Virus record (IMG/VR): IMGVR_UViG_3300018424_000197
Location: 1 to 26,547 of that record
DNA: 26,547 bases
Direction: 5' to 3' (one strand)
Source: a virus
Position numbers and translations under genes: made by a program. Under the pieces are notes generated by a model. That model ran no database searches, was not told where the DNA came from, and was given only the letters and a program-made list of their open reading frames with translations. Positions within the stretch are counted from its first letter, which is position 1; the number at the start of each line of letters is the position of its first letter. This document shows positions 3,754 through 26,547 of the stretch, piece by piece.

Positions 3754-5286
3754 TTACGCAAACGCCTGTCCTGCCGTGAAGCCACGAACTTTCGTACCAT
3801 CAGGGCTAAAGAATGTGAACACATCAATACCAGCCGCACTTGAAGTCAAGGTTGGAGCAGTGTTGTCACTAGCCCACGACACTGCTGTTGCCCATGTGAT
3901 TGTCGTTGTATTTGGGTGTACTTGAAGGGTCCAAGCATCGCCAGCAGAGATGGGGCTGAAGTCAATGGTGGTTGCTACGCCCGTCGTCAAGAATAGGTCA
4001 TACACTCCCGGTGCTGCAACAGTGTAAGCAGTGCTGACGGTAGCAGTGGTGACAGCTTCGCGAATACCTGCATTAAAGGTTGCAAGGCCGTTGTGGGTGT
4101 TTGCGCCTGATGTTACAAGAGCGCCAGAGATGTTAACATCAGCGAAAGCGGCTGTAGAGTTAACCGTCAGATTAGTGAACGTCCCCGCCGCAGCAGCAGA
4201 TGCACCAATAACTGTGCTGTTGATTGTAGCACTGGTAAACACCACCCCTGCAATTGTGCCGCCAGTGATGGCAACATTGCTCTGATCAAGCGGAACACCC
4301 TGCACACCTGCAACGTTAACAGTCCAACCAGCATATGTACCAGAACCCTCTGTACGCTCAATGTCAAGGCTTACTGTCTGTGTTGCAGTCGTATAAGACG
4401 CAACCTCACCAAACACCCAGTTGTCCGCTGTTGCAGTGATAACCAATCGTGCTCCGGCAGCAATACCAAGGTTATCTGCAAGAACAAATGAAACTCCATC
4501 TGCGGTTGCAATTGTAGCTGTAGTTGTTGTGGTAGTTGAAAGAGCAAGATTATTAGCAATCTGCGTCGTCACATAGGACTCAGTGGCAATGGCATTGCCA
4601 GCAATAGTTCCTGTACTACCTACAACAAGATTGGTTACAGTCGCTGTCGTTGTGGTAACATTTGCAAAAGTTGCAGGAGCACCAGAAGCATTGACAGCGG
4701 AGGTGACATTCAGATTCCCTGCTGTCAGGTTTGTAAAGTTGGCAGAGGCAATAGTAATCGCTGACAAATCTAATGTAGAGCCAGTTGCTAATGTCACGGT
4801 TCCTTGAAATACAGCGGAAGTCGTGTTGGTCAGATTAGCTATCGTTGCTGCCGTAATGACGTTACCTGATAGATCAATTGTTCCACCAGTTGCGAGGGTA
4901 AGTGTACCACGAATTGTTGCGGCGGTGGTATCCACATTTGATACATAAAGAGTTCCATAACGGACAGTGCTAGTTCCGAGATCAAAGGCTGTGCCCGTTG
5001 ATGTACGGAGTTCAGTTACGCTGCTGACAAGTACCTCTGTACCAGCCACATCAATCCGTATCAGGTCTTCATCAGCGGTGCTCTCAACGCGGATACGTGT
5101 GTCACCATCTGCGTCAGAAATTAGAGGTACAAGTGCTCCTCCACCTGTAGTACCATCGTGATTATGCCCTGTTGTTTCGGACATAGCCGCCTGGAGTTGG
5201 TTGAACTCAGCATTAAGTGGTGACGCCTGTACAACAGCGCCTGTAATGATGTCTGCGGCAGATTGTCGCTGGTAACCTTGTGGCAT
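3754..5286 (-). CDS. Tail fibre / tail spike-like protein
   Basis: This 510-aa protein is Thr/Ala/Ser/Val-rich. The N-terminal 50 residues have a LNAEFNQLQAAM helix followed by GHNHDG and a Gly-rich turn, a start often seen in phage fibre and baseplate-wedge-like proteins, where it likely attaches to the virion. Residues about 60-400 are many short repeats of ATI-NLT-T type with a TLATGxTxDLS unit present twice, compatible with a beta-helix or triple-stranded fibre. The last 100 residues form a distinct domain (DLFLTTGVATTIDF, WTLQVHPNTTTITWA, then FTFFSPDGTKVRGF) like C-terminal head domains of environmental phage fibres. It lies directly downstream of the nozzle-like gene. Receptor binding is the expected role. 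Confidence 0.8.
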   Translation of the reverse strand: MPQGYQRQSAADIITGAVVQASPLNAEFNQLQAAMSETTGHNHDGTTGGGALVPLISDADGDTRIRVESTADEDLIRIDVAGTEVLVSSVTELRTSTGTAFDLGTSTVRYGTLYVSNVDTTAATIRGTLTLATGGTIDLSGNVITAATIANLTNTTSAVFQGTVTLATGSTLDLSAITIASANFTNLTAGNLNVTSAVNASGAPATFANVTTTTATVTNLVVGSTGTIAGNAIATESYVTTQIANNLALSTTTTTTATIATADGVSFVLADNLGIAAGARLVITATADNWVFGEVASYTTATQTVSLDIERTEGSGTYAGWTVNVAGVQGVPLDQSNVAITGGTIAGVVFTSATINSTVIGASAAAAGTFTNLTVNSTAAFADVNISGALVTSGANTHNGLATFNAGIREAVTTATVSTAYTVAAPGVYDLFLTTGVATTIDFSPISAGDAWTLQVHPNTTTITWATAVSWASDNTAPTLTSSAAGIDVFTFFSPDGTKVRGFTAGQAFA

Positions 5287-15639: not shown

Positions 15640-18312
15640 TTATCCTACTCTACGTTTGCTGAACCAACGCTTAACGTTGTTGCTAGCGGTTTTTTGTGGG
15701 CGGGTTGAGACTCCGAACTCCGCAATGTTGCGTGCCCGTGGACGAGAAGAGATTCCATAACGAAGAGCGTCATACAAGTGATCTTCTGCGGTTGTGTCTA
15801 CATCCTCGGGGTTTTTCTTATCAACCGGAATAGCCGGGAGTTGTGCAATAAGATTAACGCAATTTTCAAAAATAATTAATCTAGGTTCATCTAGAAATTC
15901 ATCCACAGCCAGAAGACGGTGAATCTCTTGTTTACCTGCTGCTCGTGTACCTTTACTTCTATCAGATGGACGCCACTTACATCCCTGGGCAATCATTGCT
16001 TCTGCAATACTTACAGTTGTATCTCCACGCTTGTGCCAACAAGAACTGTCGAGTACACCGTAGTTAGGTGCCCAAATCTTGTCTCGCTCTAGAACATCAT
16101 GTGCAAGATCAACTGCTAGACGTTTTGATACATATAGTTCATCAACTACAAAAATCTGGTCGCTAGGTGATACTGCAAACCATAGAACCCCTGTATAACT
16201 GCCATATCCATAATCACACGCACGAAATGTTTTCCAGTTCTCAGGAACGTCAAATGATTCACACGTATGAATCTTACGGTTGAACTCGCTGAATGCAGCC
16301 CCTTCCGAGACATCCCAATCCCCATAAAGAAGTGCTCTACGCTTTTCCTCTGGCAACGTGAGAAGTGTTTCCACATAACCACTGTTTGCCAGATATGGAT
16401 TGTCACTCAAGCGGCTAGGGATAAACTGACGCTTCATCAGTGGTTGCCCTGCTTTTGGGTGAGGATTTCCATATTCGTCAAGCGGTGGGTAAACTAGGGT
16501 TTCACCTGTTTCTATATCTGTTGCCCAAAATGGTTTACCCCACGGAGCAGGGTCAATGAACATTTTCTTGACCCATTGGTGGCCTGGACCTCCTGGGTTG
16601 GTTGTGGCCCTCATAAGGGGCTTAATGTTTGGGTTAGCGCTACGGTTACGAGATCGCAGATAGTCCCAAGCATTAGGGGTGTGCCAGTGAGTCAATTCGT
16701 CAAATGCCACATACGGGTAAGGCTGTCCCTGAAAGCGCGAAAGGTCTTCGTCACGATCACAATAGGTCATCCAGATACGGGCACCAGAACTAAACCTCCA
16801 CTCTGATTTCTTCTCCGACCACTTTGCACCGGGGTCCATTTTTGGGTATAGTTCTTGAGACTTGTTGATAAGTTCACGTAGTTCGTCAGTTGTTTTACGC
16901 AGGATCAAACCAACATAATCTGATTCATTAACACCATACAGAGCATCAACTAGAATAGCGTAAGAGTTGTGTGTTACAGTAAAATTTTCTGTTACATAAA
17001 GACCATCAGGGTTACTTACAGAAATACACCTACCCTCTATAGTCCCTTTTTGTTCTACTTTAACAACAGCTTTCTGAACAAGTCCTTTACCAAATTTACC
17101 ACGCTTCTTACGTTCCATACGAAAAAACTTATCAGGATTGTCGTGCTTTATATATAAACAATAAACCTTCTGACAAATTACTTTTGTACCGTCTTGGTCA
17201 CGATAAGAACCCATCTTATCTGTAATCGTGACACATGCTCCCAAACTTCTAAACAGACTTGCTGCGTCATTTGCTAACTGTTCTGATACTGTGTAATAGT
17301 AGATCGCATTCTTGTTGGGGGCTGAGTAACCGTCGGTATCCATTAGCCCTTGAGCAACTGCCCAACGTACCTCTGAAGAATTGATAAGATAATCCCGAGG
17401 GATAAATTTTGTTGCACTACGTGTATACATAAGTCCATAGGAAGTAAACGCGCCAACTAACTCTTCTCTATATTCTCCCCCAAAACGTATGGTATTCTTT
17501 GTGTCCCACTTGTCTGTTGGGATATACTTTTTGTAGTGCTCCTTATCATCTTCATGGCACGTTATAGTTATTTGATTTGTCGTCAGACAGCCATCCCCAA
17601 TAAACACCCCCAACAAGTAAGGATCAACCTGTACCCCTTTAGAGTGAAAATACTGCTCAGAGCACACTGGAACTTGTGGTTTATAACCTTTTTCAAGGTA
17701 CTCTGAAAGTTTTTCTGTACTGACAACCTTACCCGACGCCTCGCCAAACACCCTAACACCATTAATCTTTCTGCCTCTGCGTGCCAGCCACGAAAACCAT
17801 AAATGCTCCTTAGCAACATCTAGGTGAGTGCCATCCGAAAAGTGTACGGTCCACTTAGGAAGGGTTTCCCAGGCAAATAGATGTTTGACAGTCTGTGTAC
17901 CTCCTTTTGGGTGGCATATTTCATCACCCACCCTTAAATCTTCAACCTTTACAAAGCCTTCGGGAGTTAGAATTGAGTCACCCTTTTGTACTAGCTTACC
18001 ACCACCTGCTGCCCCTCCGAATAAGACTTCACGAATAGGGGATGAAAGAAACTCTGTCTGAGGGCCGGGGTTAGGTCTGAAAACAACTTTACTACCGTTG
18101 TACGTATCTTGCCCTTCATCTTTCTTTTCAGCTTTGATAGCCTCTTTTAGTTTCTTTTCTTCTTCACGCGCAACACGAGCCTTCTCACTCTCTTGCCTTT
18201 CAACAGTAGGAGAAGTCCCTTTCAGGATCAGTTTGCCCCCCTTACTGCGTCTAGCAGTTTTACGGGACACTCCTCGTTTAAAGGTCTGAGTCGTCGTCTT
18301 CTTCGTAGTCAT
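15640..18312 (-). CDS. Terminase large subunit with internal intein
   Basis: I choose the ATG at 18312 with GGAG five bases before it; a GTG at 18318 is possible, and residue numbers below count from that GTG. The gene encodes 892 residues, of which 109-451 are an intein, leaving about 549 for the mature protein. After a basic N-terminal extension (to about 70), the ATPase has Walker A GGAAGGGK (101-108) continued by S452 after splicing, Walker B VAFDE (537-541) and a coupling motif ATTNPGGPG (571-579). The nuclease domain has likely metal-binding Asp at D702 (ACDYG), D757 (VLDSS) and D850 (HLYDALRYG). It packages and cuts DNA at the portal. It overlaps the small terminase by 35 bases. Without splicing the ATPase would be inactive. 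Confidence 0.92.
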   Translation of the reverse strand: MTTKKTTTQTFKRGVSRKTARRSKGGKLILKGTSPTVERQESEKARVAREEEKKLKEAIKAEKKDEGQDTYNGSKVVFRPNPGPQTEFLSSPIREVLFGGAAGGGKLVQKGDSILTPEGFVKVEDLRVGDEICHPKGGTQTVKHLFAWETLPKWTVHFSDGTHLDVAKEHLWFSWLARRGRKINGVRVFGEASGKVVSTEKLSEYLEKGYKPQVPVCSEQYFHSKGVQVDPYLLGVFIGDGCLTTNQITITCHEDDKEHYKKYIPTDKWDTKNTIRFGGEYREELVGAFTSYGLMYTRSATKFIPRDYLINSSEVRWAVAQGLMDTDGYSAPNKNAIYYYTVSEQLANDAASLFRSLGACVTITDKMGSYRDQDGTKVICQKVYCLYIKHDNPDKFFRMERKKRGKFGKGLVQKAVVKVEQKGTIEGRCISVSNPDGLYVTENFTVTHNSYAILVDALYGVNESDYVGLILRKTTDELRELINKSQELYPKMDPGAKWSEKKSEWRFSSGARIWMTYCDRDEDLSRFQGQPYPYVAFDELTHWHTPNAWDYLRSRNRSANPNIKPLMRATTNPGGPGHQWVKKMFIDPAPWGKPFWATDIETGETLVYPPLDEYGNPHPKAGQPLMKRQFIPSRLSDNPYLANSGYVETLLTLPEEKRRALLYGDWDVSEGAAFSEFNRKIHTCESFDVPENWKTFRACDYGYGSYTGVLWFAVSPSDQIFVVDELYVSKRLAVDLAHDVLERDKIWAPNYGVLDSSCWHKRGDTTVSIAEAMIAQGCKWRPSDRSKGTRAAGKQEIHRLLAVDEFLDEPRLIIFENCVNLIAQLPAIPVDKKNPEDVDTTAEDHLYDALRYGISSRPRARNIAEFGVSTRPQKTASNNVKRWFSKRRVG
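16966..17994 (-). other. Class 3-type intein with LAGLIDADG endonuclease
   Basis: The insert splits Walker A exactly between K108 and S452 of the terminase. It runs from L109 to N451 (343 aa). Block A is LVQKGDSILTPEGF-KVEDL, starting with Leu rather than Cys/Ser. Block B is DVAKEHLWF with His172 and Trp174. Block F has Cys431 (GRCISV) where most inteins have Asp. Block G is T449-H450-N451, followed by Ser452. The Trp/Cys/Thr set is the signature of class 3 inteins, which use the block F Cys as first nucleophile. The endonuclease motifs are LLGVFIGDG (235-243) and GLMDTDG (324-330), both with the expected acidic residue. The frame is intact, so splicing and homing may be active. Confidence 0.9.
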
Positions 18313-18700
18313 CTTCACTCCGTTTAGGAGGTAGCAAAATCACGCCACCTTTGACATCTACCTCTTGCTTGTCTACTTTTACAATACCAACACCGCGATC
18401 AAGAATGTTACTAGCAGCAGATAGTTTGTCCCGTGCAGCACCGTCGCTGGATTTGCCCTGCATGACAGCCACCATAGTACCTGCTGCCTGTGGTCCTGCG
18501 GATACTAGAACACTTTTGGTAATATCTGCAATTTCATCTGCGAGAGATTTTGCAATACGCATGTAATTCGTTTCATAACCATTATACCCCGCGCGTTGGG
18601 CAGCTTCTTTGTAATAGTTAGAAACTTCTGGTTCGTTCAAGATGATGTCTTGTAAAGCCTCTAGAAAGGCTTCTTGTTTTTCTGTCAGGTTATTAGACAT
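18278..18700 (-). CDS. Terminase small subunit-like protein
   Basis: The chosen ATG at 18700 has GGA six bases upstream; an upstream in-frame GTG at 18727 lacks a good ribosome site. The product is 140 aa. The N-terminus (LTEKQEAFLEAL-DIILNEPE, then KEAAQRAGYNGYET) looks like the helix-turn-helix DNA-binding part of small terminases. Next come helices with an ARDKLSAASNILDRGVGIVK oligomerisation-like motif. The end, VKGGVILLPPKR plus an acidic tail, resembles the region that contacts the large subunit. It recognises the packaging start on viral DNA. It overlaps the large terminase downstream and the HNH-like gene upstream by 8 bases, so all three are coupled. Confidence 0.8.
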   Translation of the reverse strand: MSNNLTEKQEAFLEALQDIILNEPEVSNYYKEAAQRAGYNGYETNYMRIAKSLADEIADITKSVLVSAGPQAAGTMVAVMQGKSSDGAARDKLSAASNILDRGVGIVKVDKQEVDVKGGVILLPPKRSEDDYEEDDDSDL

Positions 18701-18983: not shown

Positions 18984-19321
18984 TAACGCTTTCCTGTTTT
19001 TTCAAGTAGGTTATCAATTTTTGAAGAGATGGTTTCTGTCTGGCGGATAATAAATTCCTGCCCAGCTTCTAATCTCGCAATACTGTTACCCATGTTGGTA
19101 ACCTTGCCTTCAAGTTCACTTACTCTATCCCAAACGCGAACACGTTGTTCAATCTGGAATGAACGGTTTTCAGCAACTACATTTCTAAGGGCTTCAAGCG
19201 CCTTCGTGTTGCTTTCCACACCTTCCTGTAATTGGGTGTAACTAACAACTACCCCAACAACAACAAGCACAGCAGTAAGAATGTTACCTAAACTAACTCT
19301 AGGCTCAATTTGTACAGGCAT
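18983..19321 (-). CDS. Membrane-anchored coiled-coil protein A
   Basis: The likely start is the ATG at 19321 with GGA eight bases upstream, inside the end of the previous gene; an earlier ATG at 19339 has poor support. The product is 112 aa. Residues about 12-28 (LTAVLVVVGVVVSYTQL region) form one membrane segment. The rest is a long helical region with heptad spacing (ALEALRNVVAENR, VSELEGKVTNMGNSIARLEA, ISSKIDNLLEK). This layout, one N-terminal anchor plus coiled coil, is found in phage Rz-like spanins and some holins. No lysis enzyme is visible nearby, so the role stays open. It follows a second gene of the same layout. Confidence 0.7.
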   Translation of the reverse strand: MPVQIEPRVSLGNILTAVLVVVGVVVSYTQLQEGVESNTKALEALRNVVAENRSFQIEQRVRVWDRVSELEGKVTNMGNSIARLEAGQEFIIRQTETISSKIDNLLEKTGKR

Positions 19322-19323
19322 TT

Positions 19324-19578
19324 TTATCTTCCACCCCAAAGTTTATTTTCGAGTTGTTGTACTCGACGCTCCAGAGACCTTACAGTCTGTTTTAACTCTC
19401 CATACTCTTGAAATGCCTTTGGGTCTAGGCGCTTTTCAATAGATACAATACGGTCATGGTTTTGCTGTAGGCGATACTGCCCAACAGAGAAATCCCCGGC
19501 AAGAACAACTATTGCCGTGATAATGAACCAATACTGCTTCAGGAATGTTGCAGCACCACTTTTAACTTCATCAACCAT
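19324..19578 (-). CDS. Membrane-anchored coiled-coil protein B
   Basis: The ATG at 19578 overlaps the TAA of the DUF6321-like gene (TAATATG arrangement) and has GGAAA nine bases upstream; the frame extends further but would then lie inside that gene. The product is 84 aa. Residues about 14-32 (YWFIITAIVVLAGDFSVG) are a membrane segment. A C-terminal coiled coil follows (HDRIVSIEKRL, ELKQTVRSLERRVQQLENKL). The design matches the next gene, so the two may be a functional pair such as spanin- or holin-like subunits, or small inner-membrane virion proteins. That is an inference from shape only. Confidence 0.65.
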   Translation of the reverse strand: MVDEVKSGAATFLKQYWFIITAIVVLAGDFSVGQYRLQQNHDRIVSIEKRLDPKAFQEYGELKQTVRSLERRVQQLENKLWGGR

Positions 19579-19579
19579 A

Positions 19580-19834
19580 TTAACATTTCCAACGTTTACG
19601 AGCGGCTTTTCCTCGTTCACCTGTCCAGCCGCTACTTCGCGCACAGAAGCTCTTCTTACGCGCCCTTTGTTTTGGTGTTTTTGGATTAGCCGCAGGTTCC
19701 TTCAAATTGCTCCCGGTTTTTGCGTTGTATTTTGCCCGCCCCTTTGCAGTCAAACCCGCTCCCCTGCTGACAGGGAGTTTTTCGCCCCTGCCGACAGAAA
19801 GGTTTGGTCCCTTTTTACGTTTAGTTGTTGCCAC
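19580..19834 (-). CDS. DUF6321-like basic protein
   Basis: The probable start is a GTG at 19834 with GGGGAG at suitable distance; an ATG at 19849 in the same frame lacks a ribosome site. The product is 84 aa and very basic. It has GAGLTAKGRAKYNAKTGSNL in the middle and KSFCARSSGWTGERG then ARKRWKC at the end. This is the pattern of the DUF6321 family of small phage proteins, whose function I do not know. The conserved Cys residues (FCAR and terminal C) may bind metal or nucleic acid. It overlaps the preceding Cys-rich gene by 14 bases and couples to the next membrane-protein gene. Confidence 0.75.
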   Translation of the reverse strand: MATTKRKKGPNLSVGRGEKLPVSRGAGLTAKGRAKYNAKTGSNLKEPAANPKTPKQRARKKSFCARSSGWTGERGKAARKRWKC

Positions 19835-19982
19835 AGACACACTCCCCATTTACACATTTGCATACAGGCTTATTGCGGTTTGGGTCCATAGCCTCAAGAC
19901 GATTCAACTTGCGTTGCATTTCTTGCAATTCACGACGCATACGGTTGATTTCATCTTGAACGAAATCTTTATTTTGCGTCAT
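19821..19982 (-). CDS. 53-aa coiled-coil protein with Cys-rich tail
   Basis: This short gene starts at an ATG with GGAAG about seven bases upstream. Residues 7-32 form a helix with heptad spacing (FVQDEINRMRRELQEMQRKL). The C-terminus has CKCVNGECVCGNN, four Cys within ten residues, which suggests metal binding or a redox or iron-sulfur ligand set. It overlaps the zinc-ribbon gene upstream and the DUF6321-like gene downstream by 14 bases each, a coupling pattern typical of a real gene. I recognise no family. It could be a small regulator or a virion-associated factor. Confidence 0.65.
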   Translation of the reverse strand: MTQNKDFVQDEINRMRRELQEMQRKLNRLEAMDPNRNKPVCKCVNGECVCGNN

Positions 19983-20130
19983 GAGGAGCTTCCTTCCACT
20001 GGTAGCCGCAGTTATTGCAAGTACGCAACATGGACTCAGAAGTAAGAATCTTCTTGTATTCTACACTCACTGTAGAAGAAGAACACTTTGGACATTTACC
20101 TTGGGCATTGTACTTTTCTAATTTCGCCAT
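19969..20130 (-). CDS. 53-aa zinc-ribbon protein
   Basis: The frame runs from an ATG at 20130 to a TAA. Two Cys pairs are visible: CPKC at residues 13-16 and CNNC at 38-41, the latter followed by GYQW. The 21-residue gap with a SSSTVSVEYKK strand is typical of a zinc ribbon such as those in transcription factors (TFIIS-like) and small phage regulators. The gene is nine bases after a structural gene and overlaps the next by 14 bases. A role in nucleic-acid binding or transcription is possible; the sequence shows the ribbon only. Confidence 0.7.
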   Translation of the reverse strand: MAKLEKYNAQGKCPKCSSSTVSVEYKKILTSESMLRTCNNCGYQWKEAPHDAK

Positions 20131-20139
20131 AATAAAACC

Positions 20140-20619
20140 TTACTGTCCTAGGACAAAGGACTCATAACTAGCGCCTGTAGGTAACTTTACATAACCTAGA
20201 GTGGCAGAACAATCCGTAGCACCAGTAACGACCATATCCAAACGAGCGTTAACCCAGCCCCGAAACTTACCAACAACAGGGAGAACAATGTTGGCAGGTG
20301 CATCGTTACAAAACACCTTAAAAACTGTAATAGAATTTGTACCATCAGTAAATTGAATTTCTACTGAACCTCCTGTTCGTTTTTCAGTGTTTAACACAAG
20401 GTCGGTAATCTGTATACATCCACCTGATATAGGGGTAGTAACTGTTGTTGTCCCTGCGCTACTACGTTGCACGTTTGTGTAGGTTCCGTGGGTTTGCATA
20501 GCATTTGTGCTAACAAGGAATACCTCATCCCCGCCGATAGTTTCTGTCTCTCGCCAAAGTTCTTCAAAATGGAGAGCCTGACGATTCTTTGAATCAACTA
20601 AAACAGCATTTACTGTCAT
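20140..20619 (-). CDS. Beta-rich probable virion protein
   Basis: This 159-aa protein starts at an ATG preceded by AAGG about six bases away. It is Thr/Val/Gly-rich with alternating strands: GGCIQITDLVLNTEK, GSVEIQFTDGTNSI, and GKFRGWVNARLDMVV. It has two Cys in the central region and one near the end, no membrane segment and no catalytic motif. It ends a set of three beta-rich genes of similar style, all with two or more bases between them. The composition and grouping suggest a structural or tail-associated protein, perhaps a fibre-like decoration. I do not recognise the family. Confidence 0.75.
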   Translation of the reverse strand: MTVNAVLVDSKNRQALHFEELWRETETIGGDEVFLVSTNAMQTHGTYTNVQRSSAGTTTVTTPISGGCIQITDLVLNTEKRTGGSVEIQFTDGTNSITVFKVFCNDAPANIVLPVVGKFRGWVNARLDMVVTGATDCSATLGYVKLPTGASYESFVLGQ

Positions 20620-20621
20620 GT

Positions 20622-21245
20622 CTAACCTTCACCAAATTCCGCAAGATTCAACACAACAGTATTCACACTAACCCCAATCGTTTCCCCGTTTGTAGCGTTA
20701 CCTCCACCAACACCTGCGGTAGACCACCCGAGCAACCATGTGGTATCAGGGGTGATGATATTTGTTGCGCGCATATTGCGTTGCTGGCTGGCGTTGCTGC
20801 CAAGATAGAACGCGTGGAATTGTTGTCCACCTGTGTAGGTCATATCAGAGGAACCATCACTGACAACAAACGTAGCAGACAAAGCGTCAGGTTTACCAAA
20901 GTTTTTCTGAATAATACCATCAGATGTGGAAGAAGTTTTGTCTGTGCCGTTGCTGACAGATGCAGGTTGCTTTACTTGTAAGATTTTGACGGGGGTTGTG
21001 AGGGTGTGTGCGTCAAAGTAAATTCGGGTAATAAGGATGCTGTCTGTGTTGGAAGTGTTCTTGATGTACAACAAACCGCCAGAAGAGGCTGCTGCTAGGT
21101 GGCATTCTGCATGAAAGATGTAACTGTTTCCTCGGATGGATTCAATTGCCTCTTCTGCAAAAGACTCAGAGCGTACAGAAAGTTGGTTGTAATTTGTTAC
21201 TCGTGCTAGAGTACCATCCGTGTTGTTCTTGATGTTAAATTCCAT
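20622..21245 (-). CDS. Beta-rich probable virion protein, paralogue 1
   Basis: This 207-aa protein starts at an ATG with a G-rich site (AGGGGGG) about ten bases upstream. Its N-terminal section (DGTLARVTNYNQLSVRSES) matches in layout the next upstream gene, whose N-terminus reads SGKLVKVLGDNQLSVISES. Both proteins then show a run of beta strands with Ile/Tyr/Phe (SDSILITRIYFD-type here, TKLFITDYIFTNG there). The last third contains WLLGWS and a Gly/Asn-rich loop. They are likely related subunits of one virion structure. No known domain is recognised, and the role is inferred from composition. Confidence 0.75.
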   Translation of the reverse strand: MEFNIKNNTDGTLARVTNYNQLSVRSESFAEEAIESIRGNSYIFHAECHLAAASSGGLLYIKNTSNTDSILITRIYFDAHTLTTPVKILQVKQPASVSNGTDKTSSTSDGIIQKNFGKPDALSATFVVSDGSSDMTYTGGQQFHAFYLGSNASQQRNMRATNIITPDTTWLLGWSTAGVGGGNATNGETIGVSVNTVVLNLAEFGEG

Positions 21246-21261
21246 GATAACAGTACCCCCC

Positions 21262-21867
21262 CTATTCTTCTATCTGTGCTTGATATGCGAACACAATTGC
21301 CCGAACAGTCATGTTTGTGTTACCAGAAGGAGGGATACACCCGATTGCAAAAGTGTTATTGCGCTCCAACACAAATGGCCTTGCCGCTTGTTCAATCTCT
21401 TGGCGGCGTGTAGTGCTAGATAGAGTCACAATGCCCACGTTAGTGCCGTCAATGAGTGTGCGGCCTTCTTGACCAACATAAGCTAGTCCCGGCATGACAT
21501 CTGGACCGGAGAAATTACGATTACGCACTGTAGCATTTGTTGCGCCGCTGACAATAGTTCCTGATGTACCGTTTTTGTATAGTGTAAAACGAGTGTCGTT
21601 TGTGCCCCCACCCGTAGAATCACCATTGGTGAAAATGTAGTCTGTGATAAACAGTTTTGTGTTACTTGCGGGTATATACTTAATCCACAACAGTATGGAT
21701 TCAGAGTCAGACGTAAGTGTTACATCTCCAGTAAGAATAGTGACGTGGCGCTGAAAATAAGCGGTGTATGCCCCAGGCGTAATAGACTCAGAGATAACAC
21801 TCAACTGATTATCACCAAGCACCTTAACAAGTTTTCCGCTAGGTCCTTCAAGCATTGTATTAGACAT
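21262..21867 (-). CDS. Beta-rich probable virion protein, paralogue 2
   Basis: This 201-aa protein starts at an ATG with AAAGGTGAT upstream. It shares with the 207-aa neighbour the N-terminal G-L-V-NQLSV-SES pattern and a strand-rich body (SESILLWIKYIP, TKLFITDYIF). The end has TMRAIVFAYQ-like strands preceded by a Pro/Gly/Asn loop. It is Thr/Gly/Asn-rich with a single Cys. It lies 25 bases after the small 77-aa gene and 16 bases before its relative. The pair may have arisen by duplication. The function is inferred as structural. Confidence 0.75.
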   Translation of the reverse strand: MSNTMLEGPSGKLVKVLGDNQLSVISESITPGAYTAYFQRHVTILTGDVTLTSDSESILLWIKYIPASNTKLFITDYIFTNGDSTGGGTNDTRFTLYKNGTSGTIVSGATNATVRNRNFSGPDVMPGLAYVGQEGRTLIDGTNVGIVTLSSTTRRQEIEQAARPFVLERNNTFAIGCIPPSGNTNMTVRAIVFAYQAQIEE

Positions 21868-22420: not shown

Positions 22421-23191
22421 TCACTTATCTGCGTATGAACGGGATTTGCTATCCCCGCTTTTGCGAATCCGACGAGTAGACGTTTTACGCCCACCATAAT
22501 CGGCGCTGTTAGCCATCTTTGATTGCGATTGACGGGACTTTTTGTTGGGGGCAGCAGCGGTAGCCTTTTTTGCTTTAACTTTAAAGCCGTCACTTTTCCC
22601 TTTAGTGTTTGCCGCCGTTTCTCTGTTGACGGTTTTAGACTTTCCTTTAGCCGTTGACCGTGCTTCCTGCTCTGCCTTGGTGCCCTTTGTCACTGCACGT
22701 TTGGTGCCTTGACCAGCCTTGGCAGCACTGGAGAAACTCGTTGCGTTGGACTTGTCGTCTTTGTAGTTCTTGCGAGCTTTGTCAGAAGTTCTCTTTGCTG
22801 CACGACCGCCTTCTACAGCAGCACCAACAAGACCTGCAATTCCAAGCCCTGCGCCACCAGACATCTTTGAAAGAATGCGCCCTGCTTTGCCAACCTTACC
22901 AAGGGTCATTGATTTTGGTTTAGCCGAGGCAGATGAGGTTTTACGTGCCTCTACTTCTTTAGCGTTACTGAACCTACCGCCCTTACGTGCACGTTGTTGT
23001 GTCTTTGCCTTGGCGCTGTTAGCGGCTTTGTTGCGAGCATCACGGGCATCTTTACGCTTTGCTGCACCTTCACTACGACGTGAGGTAGCAGGTTTACCCT
23101 CACCTTTCATAACAGCTTGTTTGCTATTTGAATATCTACCTGAAGTTGCACGTTGTTGTTTACGTGCGTTTACAGAGCTTGAACGTGGCAT
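22421..23191 (-). CDS. Highly basic repeat protein A
   Basis: This 256-aa protein starts at an ATG with GGGAGA nine bases upstream. It is made largely of Lys, Arg, Ala, Ser and Gly, similar in composition to histone H1-like or other DNA-condensing proteins. It carries a duplicated unit: QQRATSGRYSNSKQAV near residue 12 and QQRARKGGRFSNAKEVEARK near 65. A short hydrophobic Gly/Ala stretch (AGLGIAGLVGAAV) lies near residue 115. Near the C-terminus is MANSADYGG, related to a motif in the gene upstream. DNA binding, perhaps inside the capsid, is inferred from charge only. Confidence 0.7.
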   Translation of the reverse strand: MPRSSSVNARKQQRATSGRYSNSKQAVMKGEGKPATSRRSEGAAKRKDARDARNKAANSAKAKTQQRARKGGRFSNAKEVEARKTSSASAKPKSMTLGKVGKAGRILSKMSGGAGLGIAGLVGAAVEGGRAAKRTSDKARKNYKDDKSNATSFSSAAKAGQGTKRAVTKGTKAEQEARSTAKGKSKTVNRETAANTKGKSDGFKVKAKKATAAAPNKKSRQSQSKMANSADYGGRKTSTRRIRKSGDSKSRSYADK

Positions 23192-23227
23192 AATAAAAAA
23201 TCTCCCAAAAAAAGAAAAAGTCGGTTG

Positions 23228-24013
23228 TTATTTATCGGGACCGTTATCGTCCCAAAAGGCTTGGTTGTCCTTACGGGTCTTGGTCTTTTCAGCTTGTGAA
23301 CGCTTGTCGTTAAAAAGTTTTCCAAGTGTTCGTGTAATAACATTATTACGGGCATCTGTGGAACCAGATGTGTATTTACGTGTTCCTGGACCTGATCCAA
23401 AGCCTTTTTCAGTTTTGCTGACGCGGCGTTGTTTTCGCTCCATATCTCCAGAGCGCTTTTTAGGCCGGGGGGTAGGTTTCGGCGGGGTTTTACTACCCGC
23501 AGCGTAGTTACCATAATCAGCCGTGTCCATAACTTCTCTACTCATTTTCTTTGGACGTTCAGTAGGTTTCGAAGGAGTGGGTTTTGCCTCAGCCTTTTTG
23601 CCTATACCCTTGTTACTACCTGGGCGGTTCTTTGCTGCTTCAGTTGATTTAGCAAGACGCTCAAGGTTAGTGCCCCCACGTTTGTTAAACGGGTTGGTCA
23701 CTTTTCCTCGCCCCTTACCCTTGTTTTTGATCTCGTCCTTTTCAGCGTTGCTATCACTAGACTGTTTTTTCGGGTTGGTCTTATTTTTAAGCGGGGAAAT
23801 GCCAATTTCGCGAAGCTTATGTTGAACATTTTCGCGCCAAGACTTGCTGTCGGTATCGGGTGTGCTGTTTACATGCTTACGTGCCGTCCGACTTGCAACA
23901 CGTTTTGCAGTTGAACCTGCGGCTTCAAAAGCCGCTTTAGCAGCAGGACTTGGAGTCTTACCTGTAAATGTCGCGATATAGTAGTCTTGCAGTTTTACCA
24001 TATTTACGGCCAT
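23228..24013 (-). CDS. Highly basic repeat protein B
   Basis: This 261-aa protein has a folded-looking N-terminus (MVKLQDYYIATFTGKTPS) and then a long Lys/Arg/Ser/Pro-rich, probably disordered section. The unit KPTP-P-KK appears twice (near residues 148 and 179). Between them is MDTADYGNYAAGSK, similar to the MANSADYGG end of basic protein A. A GGAGG lies about 15 bases before the ATG, farther than usual, so a start at the internal ATG four codons later is possible. Nucleic-acid or virion-internal binding is a reasonable guess. I recognise no domain. Confidence 0.7.
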   Translation of the reverse strand: MAVNMVKLQDYYIATFTGKTPSPAAKAAFEAAGSTAKRVASRTARKHVNSTPDTDSKSWRENVQHKLREIGISPLKNKTNPKKQSSDSNAEKDEIKNKGKGRGKVTNPFNKRGGTNLERLAKSTEAAKNRPGSNKGIGKKAEAKPTPSKPTERPKKMSREVMDTADYGNYAAGSKTPPKPTPRPKKRSGDMERKQRRVSKTEKGFGSGPGTRKYTSGSTDARNNVITRTLGKLFNDKRSQAEKTKTRKDNQAFWDDNGPDK

Positions 24014-24930: not shown

Positions 24931-24959
24931 ATTATAGCATAATGCACAGTGTTTGTCAA
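24931..24959 (-). promoter_or_regulatory. Consensus sigma-70 promoter for the 92-aa gene
   Basis: The minus strand has TTGACA (24959-24954), a 17-base spacer and TATAAT (24936-24931), both perfect. The start site would be near 24924, six bases from the ATG. It drives the 92-aa gene and probably the signal-peptide gene and those following. Confidence 0.88.
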
Positions 24960-25033
24960 GCAAAAAATGACTATATCGTGTTTTTTTATGCTTTTTAATT
25001 TTTTTTCACGATTTGTGCATTTTTTACTTGACA
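24954..25033. repeat. Mirrored 27-bp element at divergent promoters
   Basis: Two copies of a 27-bp element face away from each other, one at 25007-25033 (plus) and one at 24954-24980 (minus). Both begin with CACGAT, have ATTTTTT in the middle and end in the -35 box CTTGACA; 22 of 27 positions agree. They are separated by 26 bases of mostly T. This is an inverted repeat around the divergent promoters and a candidate binding site for one regulator controlling both. Confidence 0.75.
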
Positions 25034-25057
25034 CGGGTATGCTTTTCGTGGTATAAT
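25028..25057 (+). promoter_or_regulatory. Plus-strand sigma-70 promoter with extended -10
   Basis: The plus strand has TTGACA (25028-25033), an 18-base spacer and TATAAT (25052-25057) preceded by TGG, an extended -10. It points rightward, but both genes downstream are on the minus strand, so the transcript would be antisense to them or a small RNA. A stem of ACCCCT with AGGGGT lies at about 25081-25107. Confidence 0.8.
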
Positions 25058-25131
25058 AGTGTTTCGAGTGGCGGCGAGAAACCCCTATATAATAGAAGTA
25101 CAGGGGTGTAACTTCAGATGTAACTTCGATG

Positions 25132-25389
25132 TTACTTCGTACCCATATCCAAAATGTTACAATCCTCATGCACTCTAACCACTGATTTAGGGTCATAAAG
25201 GTTGATGACCAACACTTCCTTGGTTAAATCATCATAGTGGATCATTCGAGAATCCCCACTCACAGCTATCAGCTTCAGCAATACCTTTTCCTCCCCAAGG
25301 ATTTGCTTCCTTGGAGAGAACACCCTCTCTATGGCGAATATATCATTTTCTGATATCCACCGAAGAGTATTTGGAGTGATTGTTGACAT
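25132..25389 (-). CDS. Unknown 85-aa protein
   Basis: The ATG at 25389 has AAAGG nine bases upstream. The protein alternates helices and strands (NTLRWISENDIFAIERVFS, KVLLKLIAVSGDSRMIHYDD, EVLVINLYDPKSVVRVHED) and is mildly charged with one Cys. It has no signal or membrane segment. The stop codon lies inside a cluster of GTTACTTC-type repeats. It follows the 166-aa gene by 57 bases and probably shares its promoter. It is likely an early or accessory protein; no family is recognised. Confidence 0.75.
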   Translation of the reverse strand: MSTITPNTLRWISENDIFAIERVFSPRKQILGEEKVLLKLIAVSGDSRMIHYDDLTKEVLVINLYDPKSVVRVHEDCNILDMGTK

Positions 25390-25446
25390 GCAGTTTCACC
25401 TTTAGTTGCAGTTGAAGTTTCGTACTCATATTCAATTTCTTTTTTA

Positions 25447-25947
25447 TCAGTGCAGTGTAGGTTTGAACCTTGGTTCTGCAATCTCCATACGGGCATCAGC
25501 AGAATCATCCATCTGGAATTGGAATCCAATGTCCATAAGTTTCTCCAGTGCAACCTTTACCATAGGATCACCCTCGTGGATTGGGTCACACAACACTGCC
25601 TTTAGACCACAAAGCAGCATCATTGTGTTTTGGGCTATTGGATGCTCCTCGAAAATCTCCATAAGTGCATCGTCATCCTCATAGAGTTCTTGGGTAAGCA
25701 GAACTGATACAGTCCCAGTTTCAAAGTCCATGATGAACGCTCCCATTCTAGAATCAGGAGTTACTTCGTAGTTGTTGAGAGTTTCATATTCACCTAGATC
25801 ATGTAGATCGTAGGGGTCTTTAATTTCATCTGAAGATTCAGATGTAACTTCACCCTCATATTCAATTTGTTCCGAATCGGACCTATTGTTATCAGTGTTT
25901 GCCTCATCTGAAACTACACCTGATTTAACATTTTCATTCTTTTTCAT
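25447..25947 (-). CDS. Unknown 166-aa acidic protein
   Basis: The start at 25947 has AAAGG seven bases upstream; an ATG at 25962 is possible. Residues 1-70 are low-complexity and acidic, rich in Glu, Ser, Asp and Asn (YEGEVTSESSDEIKDPYD). Residues about 75-166 look folded: GAFIMDFETGTVSVLLTQEL, then a helical DDALMEIFEEHPIAQNTMMLLC, then LMDIGFQFQMDD. The region coding for the acidic part contains copies of the short repeats seen across the right end, such as GTAACTTC. It is preceded by a consensus promoter about 150 bases upstream. No family is recognised. Confidence 0.75.
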   Translation of the reverse strand: MKKNENVKSGVVSDEANTDNNRSDSEQIEYEGEVTSESSDEIKDPYDLHDLGEYETLNNYEVTPDSRMGAFIMDFETGTVSVLLTQELYEDDDALMEIFEEHPIAQNTMMLLCGLKAVLCDPIHEGDPMVKVALEKLMDIGFQFQMDDSADARMEIAEPRFKPTLH

Positions 25948-25964
25948 AGCCTTACCTTTCATTT

Positions 25965-25999
25965 GTGATATCAAGTGAAATATCACTGTGATACATCAC
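25965..25999. repeat. Two adjacent palindromes upstream of the 166-aa gene
   Basis: GTGATAT at 25965-25971 and ATATCAC at 25980-25986 are inverted around eight bases. The next site, GTGATACATCAC at 25988-25999, is GTGAT inverted with ATCAC around two bases. They sit in the untranslated leader just before the start codon and look like operator half-sites or an RNA stem that could block translation. Confidence 0.5.
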
Positions 26000-26547
26000 C
26001 TGGATAATAGTCCTTTTTCGGACCTATATAACACATGGTTTCATGTGGATTTTCACCTGAAATTTCACCTGTCATAGATGATTTTTCAATTGTTTGGGTA
26101 GTATAGCACATTTTTTATCACCTGTCAAGGAAAATGTTACTTCATGTGGATTTTTTCTGAAAATATGTCTGGTACATATAGAATAACGCTACGAAGGGGA
26201 GTGGCCCATGCACCCCTACTACAACAATTGACTACTCATCTGAAATTACAAAGTGATTTTACACTCTGCCTATAAATTGTGCAATCAGTTTTAGATTCAC
26301 CTGGTATTTCATATGTGGATTCAGGTGTGTTAGCATCTGGTTTTTATAGTAATAAAACCCCCTACCAGATGAAAAATCACGTGCTATAACATATGACGTA
26401 ACACGTAACAACACGTGACAGCACAATCCAATGACACTTGAAGTAACAAATGAAACATCAACGTGTGAATACAGCTGTATTTCCAGGTGTAGAGTCATCT
26501 TGTATCTCTCTCTCTATTCGATGATATATTAGAACTATGTATTAAAA
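25987..26547. repeat. AT-rich non-coding right end with short repeats
   Basis: No gene is supported here. It holds the promoter at 26100-26128 and a CACATG/CATGTG hairpin (26032-26047). TCACCTG is exact at 25996, 26053, 26065, 26118 and 26297, with the reverse CAGGTG at 26322 and 26484. ATGTGGATT occurs at 26043, 26144 and 26313. The motifs recur at 12-base spacing in places and continue into the genes to the left. Confidence 0.55.
26100..26128 (-). promoter_or_regulatory. Sigma-70 promoter for the 166-aa and 85-aa genes
   Basis: The minus strand has TTGACA (26128-26123), a 17-base spacer and TATACT (26105-26100). Transcription would start near 26093, giving a leader of about 146 nt that contains the palindromes and the CACATG hairpin. 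A copy of TCACCTG overlaps the -35 box, suggesting that a regulator binding that motif would affect this promoter. Confidence 0.8.

Follow-up and report, generated by a model that had tools for sequence, protein, structure and literature searches.

An array of the minimal palindrome CANNTG, repeated every 12 bp, occupies the right end of a 26,547-nucleotide virus fragment (IMG/VR record IMGVR_UViG_3300018424_000197; the whole stretch is referred to as the window). A cooperative, sequence-specific protein probably binds this lattice; it would control the early promoters of the phage and would probably reach along its genome. GTWACTTC and TCACCTG, which the initial annotation had listed as separate motifs here, are one element, CANNTG every 12 bp: TCACCTG is a common form taken by the hexamer, and GTWACTTC spans the junction of two units (TG-TWACTT-C[A/G]). 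Their copies were verified (GTWACTTC at 25108, 25120, 25131, 25760, 25844 and 26136, and inverted at 26440; five TCACCTG in 25996-26303), and both motifs, like CANNTG itself, are far denser than in shuffled sequence. GTWACTTC occurs 9 times in the window against 1.6 expected, a count reached by 0 of 100 shuffles, and 7 times in 25100-26547 against 0.08 expected. The same interval holds 5 copies of TCACCTG (0.32 expected) and 31 of CANNTG (9.1 expected; 0 of 300 shuffles reach 31), while 24 CANNTG units lie in 25950-26547, where 4.0 are expected and no shuffle attains that number.

Thirteen CANNTG pairs in 25100-26547 are spaced at 12 bp, one at 10 bp and none at 11 or 13 bp, with a second peak of the spacing histogram at 24 bp. 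Base autocorrelation over 25940-26547 likewise peaks at lags 12 and 24, although the lag-12 value is not decisive by itself, as repetitive genes give similar values. The regular spacing described earlier, 11-12 bp or about one DNA turn, is borne out, but the step is 12 bp, or 1.14 helical turns, and the 11-bp step between 25120 and 25131 is an exception. It had also been proposed that the motifs run through coding and non-coding DNA at the right end; they do, but the lattice recurs in the structural genes as well. The GTWACTTC copies at 25760 and 25844 are inside a probable gene and encode Glu-Val-Thr. The array is known from one assembly; the near-identical regions of L205 and L206 stop short of it. 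Its parts are as follows (strand given where one applies):

25108..25138, plus strand: outlying left part of the array, GTAACTTC-A-GATGTAACTTC-GATGTTACTTC, stepped at 12 and then 11 bp
25385..25414: degenerate three-unit run GACATG/CACCTT/CAGTTG at the start of ORF 25132-25389, overlapping the presumed ribosome-binding site
25827..25844: a pair of perfect CANNTG units at a 12-bp step, in the stretch of ORF 25447-25947 that encodes the N-terminus
25905..25934: three units at 12-bp steps, one of them with a mismatch and the others perfect, at the 5' end of ORF 25447-25947
25960..26002: three CANNTG units (25960, 25972, 25997), with a CAnnnTG near 25984 bridging the longer step
26032..26092: closely packed units in the leader of P_L, the leftward promoter, at 26032, 26042, 26054, 26066, 26075 (one mismatch) and 26087
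26107..26148: lattice run at 26107, 26119, 26131 and 26143, two perfect and two one-mismatch units, covering P_L and reaching the conserved core
26225..26242: a pair of perfect units at a 12-bp step, immediately right of the core
26274..26339: six-unit run at exactly 12 bp, the last four perfect
26366..26417: four-unit run at 12 bp (26366, 26378, 26390, 26402) and one unit at 26412
26435..26501: two runs 13 bp apart (26435, 26447; 26460, 26472, 26484, 26496), almost at the end of the record

With one mismatch allowed, each run has two to six units following one another at exactly 12 bp, and the phase shifts between runs. CA and TG are the only fixed positions of a unit, and the NN positions are G+C-rich. 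A+T makes up 79% of the six-base spacers, which begin A-rich and end T-rich; column by column, their composition agrees with its own reverse complement (r = 0.90-0.97) and is thus dyad-symmetric. The 13 pairs at 12 bp carry 13 different spacers and 11 different NN. The densest part of the array (25950-26500) is in no continuous reading frame, and the units furthest left pass through two small ORFs that point leftward and have no database relatives. Since the units are alike only in CA/TG and the spacers are symmetric and A+T-rich, independent selection for symmetric sites is favoured and decay of a tandem or coding repeat is disfavoured. A decayed tandem repeat, one of two origins suggested at first, is disfavoured by neighbours that are unlike outside CA/TG (NN identity between neighbouring units, 4/26), by cluster phases that change and by the lack of any frame spanning the array. 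The other suggestion, an array of sites to which a protein binds cooperatively, appears to be the best fit to the retention of CA/TG, the symmetric units, the fixed spacing, the overlap with a strong promoter and the flanking of a shared core.

On the basis of its capsid, portal and terminase proteins, the phage is assigned to the HMO-2011-type podophages as an uncultured, marine-type member. Its capsid protein is 56% identical to that of CRP-345 and 55% to that of HMO-2011, over 99% of the length, the terminase and portal families match those of HMO-2011-type podophages, and the structural gene order is conserved. The terminase large subunit gene (15640-18318) is split by an intein with matches to Hint and a LAGLIDADG homing endonuclease. 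HMO-2011-type podophages have genomes of approximately 55 kb, with structural genes running leftward and early genes rightward; the record is a linear fragment and the early half of the genome lies outside it. Judged by comparison with these phages, the right end of the window is their divergent early/late control region, with the following features:

26100..26128, minus strand: leftward promoter P_L, TTGACA-17-TATACT with an extended -10 TG, 11/12
26157..26216, plus strand: core common to relatives, free of lattice sites; a weak promoter-like CTGAAA-16-TAGAAT, then TACATATA...ACGC...TGGCCCATGCACCCC
25447..25947, minus strand: probable gene, 166 aa, acidic, the first left of P_L; no relatives found
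25132..25389, minus strand: probable gene, 85 aa, the second left of P_L; no relatives found

P_L, which is predicted to be an active promoter and whose counterparts in HMO-2011 and CRP-13 score 12/12, lies some thirty base pairs left of the core. The core, presumed to be the rightward early promoter and start region, has a promoter that is weak by consensus; it aligns in the window, CRP-345, CRP-1, CRP-13 and HMO-2011, and the 12-mer TGGCCCATGCAC is common to the window and CRP-345. Lattice units cover P_L, its leader and both flanks of the core, and none falls in 26149-26224. Database searches found no relatives of the right-end genes, an Rfam search gave no match and the RNA fold of 25064-25150 is unremarkable (z -1.5); structure predictions of the two right-end proteins were discarded (pLDDT 42). 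Further left, 24931-25057 contains two perfect 12/12 sigma-70 promoters facing apart (24959-24931, minus strand; 25028-25057, plus strand), the rightward of which runs antisense into the leftward ORFs, so that its transcript start may be that of a small RNA. In addition, 25394-25441 and 25824-25871 form a 48-bp repeat with 73% identity, and the N-terminal coding part of ORF 25447-25947 has an apparent decayed copy right behind the ORF's own stop.

The array gave rise to the hypothesis, so the remainder of the window can test it independently. The null for the coding part (1-24963) was a shuffle holding every protein, the codon counts of each gene and all dinucleotides. Against it, CANNTGN6CANNTG occurs 14 times (1.9 expected), TGN6CANNTG 38 times (14 expected) and TGN6CA 192 times (152 expected, z 4.8). 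There are 13 three-unit lattices that match in 11 or more of 12 letters (1.2 expected) and 8 five-unit lattices that match in 17 or more of 20 (0.1 expected). Without two low-complexity genes, there are still 21 three-unit sites (at least 10 of 12 letters) against 6.5 expected. Periods of 9, 15, 18 and 21 gave nothing comparable to 12. Furthermore, in an agnostic scan of 460 gap-lag combinations per genome over nine genomes the only outliers were CAN2TG and TGN6CA of this phage at lag 12 (z 9.5 and 9.0; next best 5.1). The following runs were located in the genes:

4461..4538: lattice run of approximately six units, inside gene 3754-5286
4863..4916: lattice run of five units, inside gene 3754-5286; relative L209, 88% identical, largely lacks it
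5106..5147: lattice run inside gene 3754-5286; missing in L209, with many differences on CA/TG positions
23341..23394: lattice run of five units, inside gene 23228-24013

Gene 3754-5286 thus has three runs, two of which the aligned L209 lacks. Because the shuffles hold the protein fixed, the excess lies in third bases. All but one of the gene runs share the frame NCA NNT GNN, which is the commonest CANNTG frame anyway (119/161), and their spacers are without A+T bias; a codon-context effect outside the shuffle model is a less likely but conceivable source. The excess is absent from 16.4-21.6 kb, which contains the intein and a segment 96% identical to L209. That segment (19033-21576), itself without a 12-bp lattice, looks recently exchanged, since other aligned stretches are 71-88% identical to L209. 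At 22421-24013, two adjoining genes without database relatives encode very basic, low-complexity proteins (pI 11.4 and 10.4), possibly DNA-condensing.

The comparison with relatives called for initially showed the same control region and core, with weaker palindromic repeats of other motifs. In HMO-2011, CRP-1, CRP-13 and CRP-345 the control region occupies the same site between leftward structural and rightward early genes; all share the core TACATATA...ACGC...CCCC...TGGCCCAYGC with the window, and two have a leftward TTGACA/TATAAT promoter. Short palindromic repeats are also present in the leader of the leftward promoter, but they are fewer and weaker than in the window array and consist of AAGTG/CACTT or AAGTA/TACTT rather than CANNTG every 12 bp; AAGTG occurs 6 times in the leader of CRP-1 (0.5 expected) and 5 times in that of HMO-2011 (0.6 expected). 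Nor are these repeats locked to 12 bp or enriched in the genes of their phages: a test of each relative's own control motif showed no genome-wide enrichment, and the three-unit lattice is absent from 23 relatives' records. TTGTGATCACAA is common to the control regions of CRP-1, CRP-13 and CRP-345, and GTGGTTAACAC to those of CRP-1, CRP-345 and HMO-2011; neither was seen in the control region of the window. HMO-2011 (L204/L494) has a genome-wide excess of CAN6TG (z 3.9) and CAN7TG (z 3.7), with CANNTG depleted (z -4.9), and L203 (MW202701) has an excess of CAN5TG (z 4.9). These scattered gap signals, like that of TGN4CA in L209 (z 3.4), did not hold as a motif or lattice. Two published descriptions of the relatives that were searched make no mention of such control-region repeats (PMC9038755, PMC6918029).

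The 12-bp unit is CANNTG flanked on each side by half an A+T-rich spacer, and we infer that protein dimers would occupy successive units and polymerise along the DNA. Such an assembly would block or modulate P_L (26128-26100) and the rightward core (26157-26216) as a multi-site operator, with the runs in structural genes acting as secondary sites for its spreading or looping; at 1.14 turns per step, the bound units would trace a superhelical path. The protein would probably be phage-encoded, from a gene in the missing half of the genome; no Pfam DNA-binding regulator families were found among the proteins of the fragment, and no described regulator was found for the HMO-2011 group. A repressor is plausible because at least one relative in the HMO-2011-type group, CRP-3, integrates into its host (PMC9038755; PMC6918029). 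It is possible, though not likely, that a phage protein forms a sequence-specific, chromatin-like filament on the lattice, coupling genome organisation to the early/late switch; the lattice would then be written into the synonymous codon choices of the structural genes and be densest at the control region.

An unlikely alternative is a nucleoid-like phage protein in the manner of phi29 p6, which would wrap the DNA with one contact per 12 bp and control genes only as a by-product, the control region being its nucleation site and the coding runs weaker wrapping signals. A p6 monomer contacts DNA every 12 bp, with preferred nucleation sites, and acts in the early/late switch (PMC10899789), so that a preferred region and the early/late link would be shared, and the 12-bp lattice agrees with the p6 step, as a sequence pattern and not as a footprint; the alternation of CA/TG steps with A+T-rich centres resembles a bending code, and the enrichment extends into structural genes. 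However, p6 is reported to read bendability and not sequence (PMC10899789), whereas CA and TG are nearly invariant here. The phi29 genome is without such a lattice, the gene spacers lack A+T bias, and nothing like a p6 gene was recognised among those of the fragment, which does not reach the early half of the genome. An improbable reading is a partition centromere, ParR-parC-like or TubR-tubC-like, on which a filament-forming adaptor would segregate a plasmid-like prophage. ParR and TubR form helical assemblies on arrays of short tandem sites that can be split around a promoter, which they repress, and centromere sites can be scattered over a genome (PMC5016525). Yet classical centromeres are direct repeats beside a par operon that conserve the whole unit and not CA/TG alone, no motor, adaptor or other partition gene was seen in the fragment, which is half the genome and ends before the right-hand neighbour of the array, and the known relatives carry integrases, one integrating in a tRNA gene (PMC6918029).

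Replication-origin iterons bound by an initiator are quite improbable. The array does lie in a divergent A+T-rich region beside strong promoters, a common location of phage origins. Iterons are direct repeats of a whole unit beside an initiator gene; the array units share CA/TG only, and the gene to their right lies past the end of the record. Against an origin, the lattice is also found in distant structural genes, and the relatives have a primase, helicase and polymerase of their own for replication, with no iteron initiator among those of their early proteins that were scanned. A coding origin, in which a gene, intact or decayed, encodes a four-residue repeat and so yields CANNTG every 12 bp, is very improbable, although it would explain most of the other occurrences examined: scans for four- and five-unit lattices in viral and bacterial collections returned more than 300 stretches, and those examined, apart from the window, were mostly repeats of four residues in coding DNA, almost always keeping to a single frame and repeating their spacers. 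The pattern GTWACTTCANNTGTWACTTC gave 46 matches, apparently coding and none with a lattice. The single frame shared by all but one of the gene runs and the two GTWACTTC copies encoding Glu-Val-Thr would also fit. Against it, no frame is open across 25990-26547 and the cluster phases differ, the spacers differ in all 13 pairs and there are 11 different NN where coding repeats mostly keep theirs, and the gene enrichment was measured with proteins held constant. Codon usage in a longer decayed gene, raised early on as a possible explanation, would hardly account for the motifs, as no open frame runs through the array and the spacers are all different.

Multi-site operators are known. As with the lattice, the operators and stoperators of L5, a Cluster A mycobacteriophage, comprise many repressor sites at promoters and across the genome, but L5 sites are 13 bp long and asymmetric, follow the direction of transcription and lie in promoters or short gaps between genes (PMC9283540), whereas those of the window are palindromic, form 12-bp lattices and occur inside genes too, and so differ from Cluster A stoperators. 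None of the phi29 p6, ParR/TubR and L5 systems matches the lattice in all features, and a fixed 12-bp lattice of one minimal palindrome extending into synonymous positions is not found among the systems compared. If the lattice is protein-bound, it would represent selection for occupancy working through codon choice in a phage, and it could provide a test system for early-gene control or DNA organisation in the widespread HMO-2011 group.
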